From contig JAMOUS010000167.1 of the NCBI GenBank assembly GCA_027067975.1, forward strand, positions 1-39,023: a DNA stretch of 39,023 bases, given 5' to 3'. The stretch's first letter is position 1; the number at the start of each line of letters is the position of its first letter. Shown piece after piece: positions 16,832-33,540 of this stretch. This DNA is from Bacteroidales bacterium. GTDB taxonomy: Bacteria; Bacteroidota; Bacteroidia; Bacteroidales; VadinHA17. The notes below the pieces were generated by a model. It was not told where the DNA came from and searched no databases. It worked only from the letters and a program-made list of their open reading frames with translations. Both the position numbers and the translations under genes were made by a program.

Positions 16832-18098
16832 GGCAAGACGGTGGTGGAAGGTTTCCGTGCCGGCAGTGGTGGTGCTTTTCTCTTTCTTTCTTATCGTCGC
16901 ATGTGAGGATGATCCCACGGACATCGGTCTGGAACTGAAAAGTGCTTTGGGCAAGGTACAACCGGTGTATGTGGATACGCTGCGGGTCTACAGTTCGACC
17001 TGGTCGCGCGATTCGATGCGTACCGACCACTCTTCGAGCCTGATCCTGGGAAATATCCTGGATCCCGTCTTCGGGTGGACGGATGCTTCGTTCGTCACAC
17101 AATACCGGCTGACGGCTCCCTGGATACCTGGGAACAATGCGGATGTCGACTCGGTGAAGCTCTTCCTGGTGATCGGGGACTATACCGGCAATGAGGTCAC
17201 CCCCATGACGGTGGATGTGTATGAGTCGTTCCGGCATATCCGTTATGATACGGTCTACTATTCCAACTTTGAAATGTACGACTCGATCAGTGTATGGCCG
17301 GTAGGTTCGGCCACCTTTCATCCCGAAGACACGATGGTGGTGGTCTATCTCTCGAAGACCTTCGGGCGGCGCATCATCCGGGATACGGCGGCATTACAGG
17401 ACAATAAGATCTTCACCGACCATTTCCCGGGATTGTACATCACCACACGAAAGAGTGGGGCTCTGGGCGAGGGGGGCTTTGCCAAGGTCAACCTGCTGGA
17501 TGCCAAGACCTATCTGGCGATCTATTATCATAACGACCTGGCCGATAAACTGACTTATGGTTTCGGCATCAACACTTACTGTGCACGCATCGGTCTTTAC
17601 AAGCATCATTACGATGAGGCTCCGCCCGAGACAGCCGTCCGCTATCTCGACCAGGAAAAGGAAGACACGGTCCTCTACGTCCAGGGTCTTGCCGGTGTCT
17701 ACAGCAAGCTTACCATCCCCGGCCTGCAGCGCTATCGTGATTCGCTGGTGGTGCTGAACAATGTACGGCTGGTGATCCCCTTTCACAACGACCCCATGGG
17801 AGCGATCATGCGAAAGCCTTCCATTCTGGCCTTGCGGGTACGGCTGGGCGACTCCCTCTTCATCGATGTGGCCGATCGGCAGGTGCCCGACCTCTATAAC
17901 GGGAGATACGACGAGGAGAAAGAGGAATATGTGATCAACTTCACCGCCCAGGTACAGCAATACCTCCTGAAACATAACGACGACCTTTCTTTTTATTTGA
18001 TGACCGATTATCCGGCCTTCGACATGGAGCGGGTGGTGCTTAACGGCTGGAACAACAGCCGGCCCCTCAAGCTGATCCTCATTTACACCGAGTTGTAG
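16803..18098 (+). CDS. DUF4270-family lipoprotein
   Basis: 431 aa; lipobox-like FFLIVACEDD; PTDIGLELKSALGKVQPVYVDTLRVYSSTWSRDSMRTDHSSSLILGNILDPVFG; overlaps upstream CDS by 29 bp. Confidence 0.85.
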   Translation: MGKLMQRISRARRWWKVSVPAVVVLFSFFLIVACEDDPTDIGLELKSALGKVQPVYVDTLRVYSSTWSRDSMRTDHSSSLILGNILDPVFGWTDASFVTQYRLTAPWIPGNNADVDSVKLFLVIGDYTGNEVTPMTVDVYESFRHIRYDTVYYSNFEMYDSISVWPVGSATFHPEDTMVVVYLSKTFGRRIIRDTAALQDNKIFTDHFPGLYITTRKSGALGEGGFAKVNLLDAKTYLAIYYHNDLADKLTYGFGINTYCARIGLYKHHYDEAPPETAVRYLDQEKEDTVLYVQGLAGVYSKLTIPGLQRYRDSLVVLNNVRLVIPFHNDPMGAIMRKPSILALRVRLGDSLFIDVADRQVPDLYNGRYDEEKEEYVINFTAQVQQYLLKHNDDLSFYLMTDYPAFDMERVVLNGWNNSRPLKLILIYTEL

Positions 18099-18107
18099 GC
18101 GGAGCGG

Positions 18108-18825
18108 CAGGGTAGCAATATAGGGCTTGGAGTATTTAGAGTGCCTAAAGTTTGAAATTACAAGTGCCTAAAGTCAGTGACACCCGCCTCGTGCGAGGTG
18201 TAGCCGAAGCAGGAGGTGTTGGTGGAACTGATCCCGACACGAAGTCGTCGGGATTAAAAGTTACGAGTGCCTAAATTATTAATGCCTAGAGTACTTGGAG
18301 TGCATTGAGTATTTAGAGTGCCTAAAGTTGTAAGTTACAAGTGACTAAATTGAGTTCGGAATTTTCTCACTTTTGCCTTCTGTGTCCGCCGTAGCCTTGG
18401 CGAAGGCGGATCGCCTCATCGCCTCATCGCTTCATCGCTTTATCGTGCCCGTCGGAGCCGCAGGCGAAGCGTCAGGATAACAATAAGTGCCTGGAGTGCC
18501 TTGAGTACTTCGAGTACTTGGAGTTCCAAGTTTCCAGTATCGAGTATGGAGTTTTTTGGAAATTCCTGTCAGAGGCATCCCTATGGGAAAATAAATCCCA
18601 AATTTCAAATCCCTGCCGGAGGTATCCCTTCGGGAAATTTTCCAATATTCAAACATTGAATTTGGTTATCGGCATATCATGTCCCCGGAGGGAAAGAATG
18701 AAATTCTCTTGCCATTGCTCCCTTGCCAAGCTGCCCCTCCGGGGCGTTCTCTCCTTATCGCATCATCGCATCATCGCTTTATCGCTTTATCGTGACCGCC
18801 GTAGCCTTGGCAAAGGCGGATAGTA
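18108..18825 (+). repeat. Intergenic modular repeat cluster 1 (convergent gap)
   Basis: 9-bp AGTRCYTNG arrays, hairpins 18185-18200, 18231-18254, 18385-18410, 18796-18819, 8-bp TCGCYTYA arrays 18411-18442 and 18758-18789, 7-bp AGTATCG units around 18535. Confidence 0.85.
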
Positions 18826-25107: not shown

Positions 25108-25410
25108 ATAAAGTGCCTGGAGTATATTTAGAGTGCCTAAAATTGAAAGTTACGAGTGCCTAAAGTCAGTGACACCCGCCTCGTGCGAGGCGTAGACGAA
25201 ACGGAATCCGCCGGTGGGCCTGACTCGATACTCCATACTCGATACTCGATACTACGAACTCGATGCTAAAAACGGTTGCCTTTTGCTTCCTCGGCCGCCG
25301 AAGCCTTGGCGTAAGCGGATCGCTTCATCGCCTCATCGCTTTATCGCTTGATCGTGACCGCCGTAGCCTTGGCGTAGGCGGATCTTTTTGTCTTTTATCT
25401 TGTTTTTCGT
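25108..25410 (+). repeat. Intergenic modular repeat cluster 2 (divergent gap)
   Basis: AGTGCCTAAA units, hairpin 25177-25192, inverted 7-bp array ACTCGAT 25223-25264, hairpins 25295-25318 (partly decayed) and 25358-25381, four TCGCYTNA units 25320-25351. Confidence 0.83.
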
Positions 25411-26589: not shown

Positions 26590-27490
26590 GTTCCCAGTTC
26601 GGAGTTCCGGGTAGGTAGTATGGAGTTCCTTTTGCCTTTTGTCCACCGTGGCTTTAGCGAAGACGGATCGCTTCATCTCATTATCGCTTCATCGTGTCCG
26701 CCGGAGCCGCAGGCGGAGCGTCAGGGTTACAAGATAGTGCCTGAAGTGCCTTAAGTACTTCGAGTACTAGGAGTTCAGAGTTCCCAGTATCGAGTATCGA
26801 GTTGACAATTGACAATGCCTGAATAAGGCGTCCCTTCGGGGACTCACCCATATTTAAATACTACTCCTTCCGAAAGTTAGATAATTATCAAATTTGTCTT
26901 ATCCAATTAATGGCGTAAGGGAAGAAAAGGCCTATTTGGATGCCCTCGGAAAACAAGCGGAGGGGAGCGTGGGATATCATAAGTGCCTTGAGTGCCTCGA
27001 GTATTTGGAGTGCATTGAGTATTTAGAGTGCCTAAAGTTGTAAGTTACAAGTGACTAAATTGAGTTCGGAATTTTCTCACTTTTGCCTTCTGTGTCCGCC
27101 GTAGCCTTGGCGAAGGCGGATCGCCTCATCGCCTCATCGCTTCATCGCTTCATCGTGTCCGTCCGAGCCGCAGGCGAAGCGTCAGGATAACAATAAGTGC
27201 CTGGAGTGCCTCGAGTATTTGGAGTACTTTTAGGAGTGACTAAAGTTAATACAAGTGCCTAAAGTCAATGACACCCGGCTTTCGTGAGCCGTAGGCGATG
27301 CGAAAGACGTTGGTGGAATTTATCCTGACCCGAGGCGTCAGGATAAAAAGTTACAAGTGCCTAAAGTCCGTGACACCCGCCTCGGGCGAGGCGTAGAAGA
27401 AGCGGAATCTGCCGGTGGGTCTGACTCGATACTCGATACTCCATACTCGGAACTCGATACTATTCGTGTTCTTAGTTCGGAGTATGGAGT
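26590..27490 (+). repeat. Intergenic modular repeat cluster 3 (convergent gap)
   Basis: 8-bp array 26668-26691, hairpin 26697-26717, 9-bp array 26731-26770, 7-bp array 26772-26806, hairpins 27095-27120, 27276-27291, 27321-27345, 27378-27393, inverted 7-bp units 27424-27490. Confidence 0.85.
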
Positions 27491-27553
27491 TACCGTTGCG
27501 GGTTGGGAGTACCGGTATGGCATGTTCCGGCGGTCATGGCACGGATCTTCCGG

Positions 27554-29789: not shown

Positions 29790-29825
29790 GTAACTACGTA
29801 GGTAGCTACGTAGGTAACTACGTAG
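29790..29825. repeat. Three tandem 12-bp units GTARCTACGTAG, each containing the palindrome CTACGTAG
   Basis: Direct reading: gtaactacgtag / gtagctacgtag / gtaactacgtag. Confidence 0.95.
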
Positions 29826-30282: not shown

Positions 30283-30533
30283 AGTAAATAGTAGAGTGCC
30301 TAAAGTTGTAAGTTACAAGTGCCTAAATTGTTATTGTCTGGAGCACTTGGAGTACCTTAAGTACTTCGAGTACTTGAAGTTCAGAGTACAGAGTTCGGAG
30401 TATGGAGTATCGAATTAGCTCACTTTTGCCTTTTGCCTTAACCCTTTTGCCTTACCGGCGTAGTTCCGAGTTCGGAGTTCCCAGTATCGAGTATCGAGTA
30501 CGGAGTATGGAGTATGGAGTATCGAGTTTGAAG
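30283..30533 (+). repeat. Intergenic modular repeat cluster 4 (co-directional gap)
   Basis: AGTGCCTAAAG and 9-bp units, five 7-bp AGTNNNG units at 30378-30412, TTTTGCC units, ten 7-bp units at 30462-30531. Confidence 0.85.
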
Positions 30534-32117: not shown

Positions 32118-32146
32118 CGATAATACGATCATCTCCGGATCTTGAA

Positions 32147-32270
32147 ACTCAAAACTCGATACCCGATACTAGGAACTCGATACTGAGAACTCGATACTCG
32201 ATACAGCGAACTGATCCGGTGAAACGATCCGCCATCATTGTCTGCCTTAGCACAGGCTCCGGCGGACGAG
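32147..32270 (-). repeat. Intergenic modular repeat cluster 5 (inverted orientation)
   Basis: Ten 7-bp ACTCGAT-type units 32147-32216; reversed hairpin TCTGCC...GGCGGA 32241-32266. Confidence 0.8.
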
Positions 32271-32280
32271 GAGGTACGGC

Positions 32281-33282
32281 ATGAACTCATTTGAAGAGAT
32301 AGCGCAGCGGATATTCCTGCTGAGGGGGGAAGAGGATTTTGCGGGGACCGCCCTGGCGTTGTTCCGTCTGCAGGCGGAGCACAATCCGGTATATCACCGT
32401 TATCTTTCATTGCTCGGGGTGGATCCACTGCGTGTGGAACGGTTGGAGGAGATCCCTTTCCTGCCGGTGCGTTTCTTTAAGTCATACCGCGTGAGCGTGA
32501 CGGAAGGTCCCTATGCGGCGGTCTTCACCAGCAGCACCACGACGGGGGGTGAGCCGTCGAGGCATTATGTGCCGCACCTGTCGTTGTATGAAGAGAGCTT
32601 TTTGCGGGCATTCCGTCATTTTTACGGGGATCCTACGGAGTATTGTATTTTGGCGCTGCTCCCCTCCTATCTGGAGCGGGAGGGTTCTTCGCTGGTGTAT
32701 ATGATGGACCGGCTGATCCGGCGCTCGGGTCATGAGGAGAGCGGTTTTTACCTGCATGATCATGCGCGTTTGTATGCCACGTTGCAGCGGCTGGCGGCAA
32801 CGGGGCAGCGCACGCTCCTTTTTGGGGTGAGCTTTGCGCTGCTCGACTTTGCCGAGCACTACCGTCTGCCGGCGATGGACCTCATCGTGATGGAGACGGG
32901 TGGCATGAAGGGACGGCGTCGTGAGCCGGTACGGGAAGAGCTGCACGGCTTCCTGAAAGAACGGTTCAGGGTGGCGGCGATCCATTCGGAGTATGGTATG
33001 ACCGAGCTGTTGTCGCAAGCCTATTCACAGGGGGCAGGAGTGTTCCGAACACCGCCGTGGATGCGTGTGCTCGTCCGTGACAGCTACGACCCCTTTGCCT
33101 GGATGCCCCCCGGCCGTACCGGCGGCATCAACATCATCGACCTGGCCAATGTCTGGTCGTGTGCTTTTCTTGAAACGCAGGACCTGGGGCGCCTCCTTCC
33201 CGACGGGGCCTTCACCGTCGAAGGACGCTTCGACCACAGCGAGATGCGCGGTTGTAACCTGATGGTGCAGGAAGTTCAGTGA
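32281..33282 (+). CDS. LuxE-like acyl-protein synthetase / phenylacetate-CoA ligase-fold protein
   Basis: 333 aa; FLPVRFFKSYRVS, FTSSTTTGGEPSRHYV, SEYGMTELLSQAYS, GGINIIDLANVWSCAFLETQDLGRL. Confidence 0.83.
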   Translation: MNSFEEIAQRIFLLRGEEDFAGTALALFRLQAEHNPVYHRYLSLLGVDPLRVERLEEIPFLPVRFFKSYRVSVTEGPYAAVFTSSTTTGGEPSRHYVPHLSLYEESFLRAFRHFYGDPTEYCILALLPSYLEREGSSLVYMMDRLIRRSGHEESGFYLHDHARLYATLQRLAATGQRTLLFGVSFALLDFAEHYRLPAMDLIVMETGGMKGRRREPVREELHGFLKERFRVAAIHSEYGMTELLSQAYSQGAGVFRTPPWMRVLVRDSYDPFAWMPPGRTGGINIIDLANVWSCAFLETQDLGRLLPDGAFTVEGRFDHSEMRGCNLMVQEVQ

Positions 33283-33540
33283 CACCCGCCTCGTGCGAGG
33301 CGTAACCGAAGCAGGAGGTGCTGGTGGAACCGATCTCAACACGAAGTCGTCGGGATTAAAAGTCACGAGTGCCTAAATTATTAATGCCTAGAGTACTTGG
33401 AGTGCCTTGGGTATTTAGAGTGCCTAAAGTTTTACAAGTGACTAAATTGAGTTGGGAGTTTTCTCACTTTTGCCTTAGCCCTTTTGCCTTAAACCTTTTG
33501 ACTTCTTTTGTCTTTGTCCTTTTATCTTTTATCTTGTTTT
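33277..33540 (+). repeat. Intergenic modular repeat cluster 6 (fills a convergent gap)
   Basis: Hairpins 33287-33302 and 33332-33355 region; similar to 18175-18370; ends in a 7-bp-period pyrimidine-rich array from about 33464 to 33540. Confidence 0.85.

Follow-up and report, generated by a model that had tools for sequence, protein, structure and literature searches.

A two-hairpin intergenic element with a conserved fold in Bacteroidales, a candidate family of REP-like mobile elements

Why do the arms of short repeated hairpins between the genes of a Bacteroidales genome stay paired while their letters change? The question arises in a contig of 39,023 nucleotides (the window, by which we mean this whole stretch of DNA), where an earlier note had proposed that paired changes among hairpins around 27269-27345 reflect selection on the fold. 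All of the sequences it quoted are present where it placed them: hairpin 2 as ATCCCGAC-acgaagtc-GTCGGGAT (18231-18254) and TATCCTGAC-ccgaggc-GTCAGGATA (27321-27345), and hairpin 1 as CGCCTC-gtgc-GAGGCG (25177 and 33287, with a gggc loop at 27378) and CGGCT-ttcgtg-AGCCG (27276-27291). The compensatory C/G to T/A change seen in hairpin 2 is real and recurrent, with pair 64/89 being T-A in 21/37 and C-G in 15/37 sequences.

Scored with a covariance model, R1, the repeats are copies of an element of ~82 nt with two consecutive hairpins. The copies in the window, and the parts of the main one, are as follows.

18173..18254, + strand: best-preserved copy in the window (R1 84.2 bits), with one unpaired position within its stems
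27264..27345, + strand: main element copy (R1 77.8 bits), two-hairpin fold of ~82 nt
27264-27269/27318-27323: outer stem of the 27264 copy, GTCAAT/ATTTAT
27270-27271/27316-27317: tandem GA of the 27264 copy
27272-27275/27312-27315: 4-bp stem of the 27264 copy
27276-27285/27300-27309: 10-bp stem of the 27264 copy
27286-27299: inner part of the 27264 copy, GA-GCC-GTA-GGC-GAT
27310-27311: TT bulge of the 27264 copy
27321-27345: hairpin 2 of the 27264 copy
33275..33356, + strand: copy at the stop codon of the gene at 32281-33282 (R1 66.2 bits), the TGA stop being supplied by the element
25165..25223, + strand: chimeric copy (R1 27.4 bits), the left half of one type joined to the right half of another
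27366..27424, + strand: second chimeric copy, in tandem with the main copy at 102-nt spacing (R1 12.1 bits, E 0.84)
27163..27189, + strand: truncated copy, the 3' half of hairpin 2 without its left arm, identical in sequence to the 3' half of the full hairpin 2 in other copies
18453..18479, + strand: a second truncated copy of the same kind, also identical to that 3' half

The R1 scores of the copies at 18173, 27264 and 33275, together with their end pattern, argue against chance. The 18173 copy lies downstream of a DUF4270 gene (16866-18098, Pfam PF14092), and proteins with Por_Secre_tail and HU-CCDC81 domains, which fit Bacteroidota, are also encoded in the window. The 27264 copy is slightly decayed: its outer stem has a C.T mismatch and the loop of hairpin 2 has lost 1 nt. 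In the chimera at 25165 the 10-bp stem is broken and ACTCGAT repeats stand in place of hairpin 2; in the chimera at 27366 the long stem is broken. At four loci (L168, L160, L179 and L152), full elements are followed by extra 5'-truncated copies, comprising the 3' part of hairpin 1 and hairpin 2, that resemble the truncated copies of the window.

Other repeats accompany the elements. Tandem repeats of 7 nt (AGTATCG/ACTCGAT) and 9 nt (AGTGCCTGG) occur on both sides of them (25223-25267, 26736-26816, 27424-27461, 30462-30527 and 32133-32204), the left unit often being the reverse complement of the right unit, as if lengthening the outer stem. At 18372-18412, 18792-18822, 25291-25384 and 27082-27122, (ATCGCYTC)n repeats come after a CCGCCGTAGCCTTGGCGAAGGCGGA hairpin; unlike the element sequence, this hairpin is common to the genus and family by DNA match. 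A 12-nt unit, GTAACTACGTAG, is repeated three times at 29790-29825.

Read 5' to 3', the fold opens with an outer stem (RTNART/AYTNAY) and a tandem G.A mismatch, continues through a 4-bp stem and one of ~10 bp to an inner GNA-type loop, and closes with hairpin 2. When the copies of the source genome were aligned, the outer stem was RTCART/AYTGAY and was followed by a tandem GA/GA mismatch. The 4-bp stem occurred as CACC/GGTG, GTCC/GGAC, GACC/GGTC, GACT/AGTC or GTCT/AGAC, and the ~10-bp stem in many sequence versions. In the same copies the inner loop reads GA-3 bp-GNA-3 bp-GA-A and is followed by a 2-nt 3' bulge, while hairpin 2, CCYGAC...GTCRGG, has an inner loop of GNA form and a single bulged base ahead of its 3' arm; loops are mostly of the GNA type. 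ViennaRNA returned essentially the same fold for three of four test sequences with both DNA and RNA parameters. For the 27264 copy, both folds contained the inner stems and hairpin 2, the outer stem being missing as DNA and its inner 3 bp being kept as RNA.

The earlier reading stands for selection on the fold and for hairpin 2, and not for hairpin 1 as drawn. As a conserved pairing, CGCCTC-gtgc-GAGGCG was paired in 67.6% of cases, compared with 66.2% after shuffling, and is only a local competitor. These pair counts rule it out, and its place is taken by a long hairpin closed by the outer stem, which the note had not described. Hairpins picked by eye in repeats like these can be the wrong ones.

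A covariation analysis over a larger set of copies, the check proposed at the outset, found significant covariation, and its extent across many copies and genera strongly supports selection on the fold. In a set of 37 diverse sequences (A1), whose rows were preselected for pairing, 95.6% of cells were paired, compared with 78.2 ± 0.7% in shuffled alignments, and the score was 0.515 against 0.206 shuffled and at most 0.10 when partners were slid. Two sets without such preselection are stronger evidence, although their alignments lean toward the model because they were fitted to it: 47 order-wide matches (A2; 94.1% paired against 75.0% shuffled, with 264 against 73 double changes) and 67 matches from the source genome (93.3% against 83.4%). 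The A2 outer stems, such as GTAAGT/ACTTAT, GTTAGT/ACTAAT, GTGAGT/ACTCAT and ATGAAT/ATTCAT, lie mostly beyond the content on which the model was trained. A tree-aware count gave 134 joint changes where 43.5 ± 5.4 were expected (maximum 64 in 1000), with 10 pairs significant after correction, and is supporting rather than exact, since recombination among copies violates the tree. The tandem G.A was retained on the 5' side in 153/158 and on the 3' side in 148/158 matches (>93%); a purely mutational process of palindrome making or repair is thus unlikely, as it would erase the mismatch. Selection clearly maintains the fold.

How widely is this fold distributed? The source genome (2.79 Mb in 311 contigs, 93% complete) gave 85 BLAST matches to the window stretch. 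By pattern it holds 74 copies in 45 intergenic regions, orientation being mixed in only one region, and the covariance model found 67 matches in the same collected stretches, or about 70 copies overall, intergenic where collected. The element-end pattern matched 42 times in this genome, while the reversed pattern matched 0 times and the 116 other family genomes gave 0 matches. A sequence-pattern search of GTDB genomes turned up Bacteroidota/Chlorobiota MAGs in which the fold is shared but the inner sequence differs. R1 matches were present in 23/117 family genomes, in 49/295 order genomes (41 genera), where the fold is alike and the sequence mostly different, and in 3/396 phylum genomes, the source genome being one of the three. 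Viral contigs gave 0 matches to the element.

At the 33275 locus, the one locus compared, congeners end in NLMVQEI* or NLMVQDI* at the matching position and carry no element, orthologues stopping one residue from the same place; the element is inserted there relative to the congeners. Two relatives (G282 and G262) each hold about 10 copies at unrelated loci with common ends and unrelated flanks. Their repeat is longer, roughly 170-220 nt, starting TTAA|ATCAGTGAGAC and ending with a further hairpin and then GTTCATT. A TIR-type MITE would have a target-site duplication beside terminal inverted repeats; the outer stem forms a 6-bp inverted repeat, but no such duplication came to light in these two genomes, where the element runs on to ...GTTCATT. 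In the source genome neither a duplicated target site nor a clear-cut right end emerged, which, like the lack of a matching enzyme gene described below, weighs against a mobile element. The many copies in one species, the strict end pattern, the empty congener locus and the common ends in G282 and G262 all point to mobility. We therefore favor, at a probability of about 55%, a new family of dispersed, non-coding, REP-like mobile elements whose folded single strand is recognized by a protein or by the cell and moved in trans. An enzyme supplied in trans would copy or move the hairpin, the probable form being single-stranded DNA, and insertions would be best tolerated at gene ends, where a stop codon is restored by the element itself.

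Comparison with known systems did not provide a name for the element. No Rfam family reached its gathering score in the window, and even the best matches in relatives and in 27000-27500 had E-values at chance level; no tRNA or tmRNA was found. We found no published description in open-licence papers, which is weak evidence of novelty. One near likeness is to CGTC-tagged REPs, short palindromic dispersed repeats with heterogeneous stems and no known dedicated transposase, also reported in Chlorobi and Bacteroidetes (Di Nocera et al. 2013, PMC3733652); like them, the element is a short dispersed palindrome with heterogeneous stems and no consistently attached transposase. Those REPs have their own unpaired CGTC (or TGTC/CCTC) tag, an 8-9 bp stem, a 4-5 nt loop and a CCA tail (PMC3733652), whereas the element has two consecutive hairpins of ~82 nt, a paired outer stem, a tandem G.A and stop-codon docking. 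It was rejected as a CGTC-tagged REP, as CGTC appears only inside hairpin 2, where the bulged C precedes GTC, and stem and length differ. Integron attC sites were set aside on inspection, the RYYYAAC ... GTTRRRY core boxes being absent from the consensus ends. Nor is the element an intrinsic terminator: no T-run lies directly 3' of hairpin 2, the letters that come next being ATCT.., ATAAAA or TTACAA. Modular repeats of pathogens, such as pneumococcal BOX, are intergenic mosaics of modules with stable hairpins. The element resembles them by description in all three respects and is apparently unrelated in sequence.

The position of the element bears on what it does. In relatives, the distances from an upstream stop codon to the first base of the element cluster at 0, +4, +5 and +8 (22/55 within -3 to +8), which is partly to be expected, as stop codons are present in several of the element's frames. 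Upstream genes were co-directional in 55 cases against 27 (p = 0.003), and convergent genes ending against the 3' end of the element numbered 0/29. Nine genomes have the element placed precisely where mnmE normally ends (..FCIGK* or closely similar); the TAA or TGA stop of the gene then falls within the outer stem, and the base facing it in the other arm is the matching one in 9/9. Of the mnmE-type gene ends that were listed for the order sample, almost all lack the element, so the mnmE copies are recurrent insertions or scattered survivals, and we rejected this position as an ancestral 3'-UTR element in general. SGI1-type islands, a different system, likewise attach at the 3' end of mnmE (PMC7826253). 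Behind mnmE at L278 (G010:C23) there is a tandem array of 72-nt units in which the outer stem is unpaired and a hairpin arm, AAATTTTGCAT, resembles the mnmE coding end just upstream. At L289 (G312:C241), positions 2213 and 3814, an element-like match stands in frame within an ORF of RHS/YD-repeat-like type (..HFVNETRLLQACAAKAVGRINP..); it may have inserted into the coding sequence or may match by chance.

Sense orientation behind genes counts against the mobile-DNA reading, because it is also expected of an element in the 3' UTR of an mRNA. The fold could act there as RNA, as a structured stabilizer or a signal for processing placed immediately after the stop codon and spread by rare copying, which we consider unlikely but the most serious of the alternatives. 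Its 5' end at stop codons, the sense bias in relatives and the agreement of stop codon and partner arm at mnmE fit such a role, as does RNA folding, in which the element was more stable than nearly all of 200 shuffles. On the other hand, T-runs, in some cases resembling terminators, precede several copies, which may therefore sit past the end of the transcript; some copies in the source genome are on the promoter side of genes; and in its tandem intergenic regions the orientation bias was 11 against 5 (p = 0.21). Were the fold maintained as RNA of the strand read, G.U would be expected to be tolerated much more frequently than A.C. On that strand, G.U and A.C intermediates were nearly equal (33:23, 53:34 and 26:23, outermost pair excluded), so G.U is not favored. 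C(GNA)G loops form extraordinarily stable DNA mini-hairpins (PMC4686876). This near parity and these loops, neither of which decides the matter, lead us to lean toward single-stranded DNA rather than RNA as the acting form. A GC-skew test of replication strand gave 54/82 in relatives (p = 0.005), a result confounded by gene direction, and was null in the source genome.

Within the mobile-element reading, the outer stem, which joins an internal arm of the element to the flank or stop-codon side, may share in the choice of site. A stronger version, in which this stem is a guide-target pairing whose internal arm docks on 4-6 host bases, often the stop codon, with lineages retargeting by changing the arm, strikes us as doubtful. 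By analogy, the end hairpins of IS200/IS605 combine folded single-stranded DNA hairpins with short guide-flank pairings. The element differs from them in having no tnpA within it and a partner arm that lies 3' of the hairpin. It was not accepted as an IS200/IS605 element: no ORF was found inside the 82-230 nt element, and Y1 loci are unassociated with it.

Could the enzyme be a RAYT (TnpA-REP), such as those of Bacteroidetes subclass 2.6, acting on a REP/REPIN-type element? We judge this improbable. Subclass 2.6 genes are flanked by atypical hairpins that are found elsewhere in the host genome (PMC6006769), and GTAG-tagged REPs and REPINs share with the element intergenic imperfect hairpins, conserved mismatches and many copies per genome (PMC3733652, PMC6006769), but the element has no consistent RAYT neighbor and no unpaired GTAG/GTGG foot. 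Its 5' junctions (TTAA|ATCAGT, TTTT|ATTCGT, GGNAA|GTRAGT and TAAA|GTCAGT) lack an unpaired GT[AG]G, and it was rejected as a GTAG-tagged REP. The source genome contains no PF01797 match, although a single-copy mobilizer may be absent from an assembly that is 93% complete. In relatives, the element was present at 0/40 loci of a first set of Y1 transposases, mostly IS200-type genes, and at 1/about 50 of a further set, some 20 of them RAYT-like. The sole adjacency among these roughly 90 loci, a RAYT-like gene in G401 with the element beside it, does not amount to consistent attachment. No autonomous version with an ORF between copies was seen in G401 or G312, and the conserved 3' hairpin with the GTTCATT end, further downstream, showed no sign of an inserted gene. 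In another genome (G017), several copies of a different hairpin set (CCACTGAAGTGGCTGC, TCCCGGAGGGA) lie on each side of a Y1 transposase gene at L226, and similar hairpins occur in the source genome at L021 and L101.

That the repeats have no function, as quasi-palindromes whose pairing is upheld by mutational template switching and by recombination between copies, is very improbable: the chimeric copies at 25165 and 27366, the repeats in arrays and the G.U/A.C symmetry would suit it, but the tandem G.A and the bulges ought to be lost under template switching, their conservation largely refutes this reading, and one architecture persists across the order despite mostly different sequence.

These repeats form a covariance-supported family of structured elements that spans a bacterial order, is not in Rfam and has no known transposase. 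They offer a testable case of a folded element placed precisely on stop codons, and the R1 model is a means of finding further copies, polymorphisms and a candidate enzyme.
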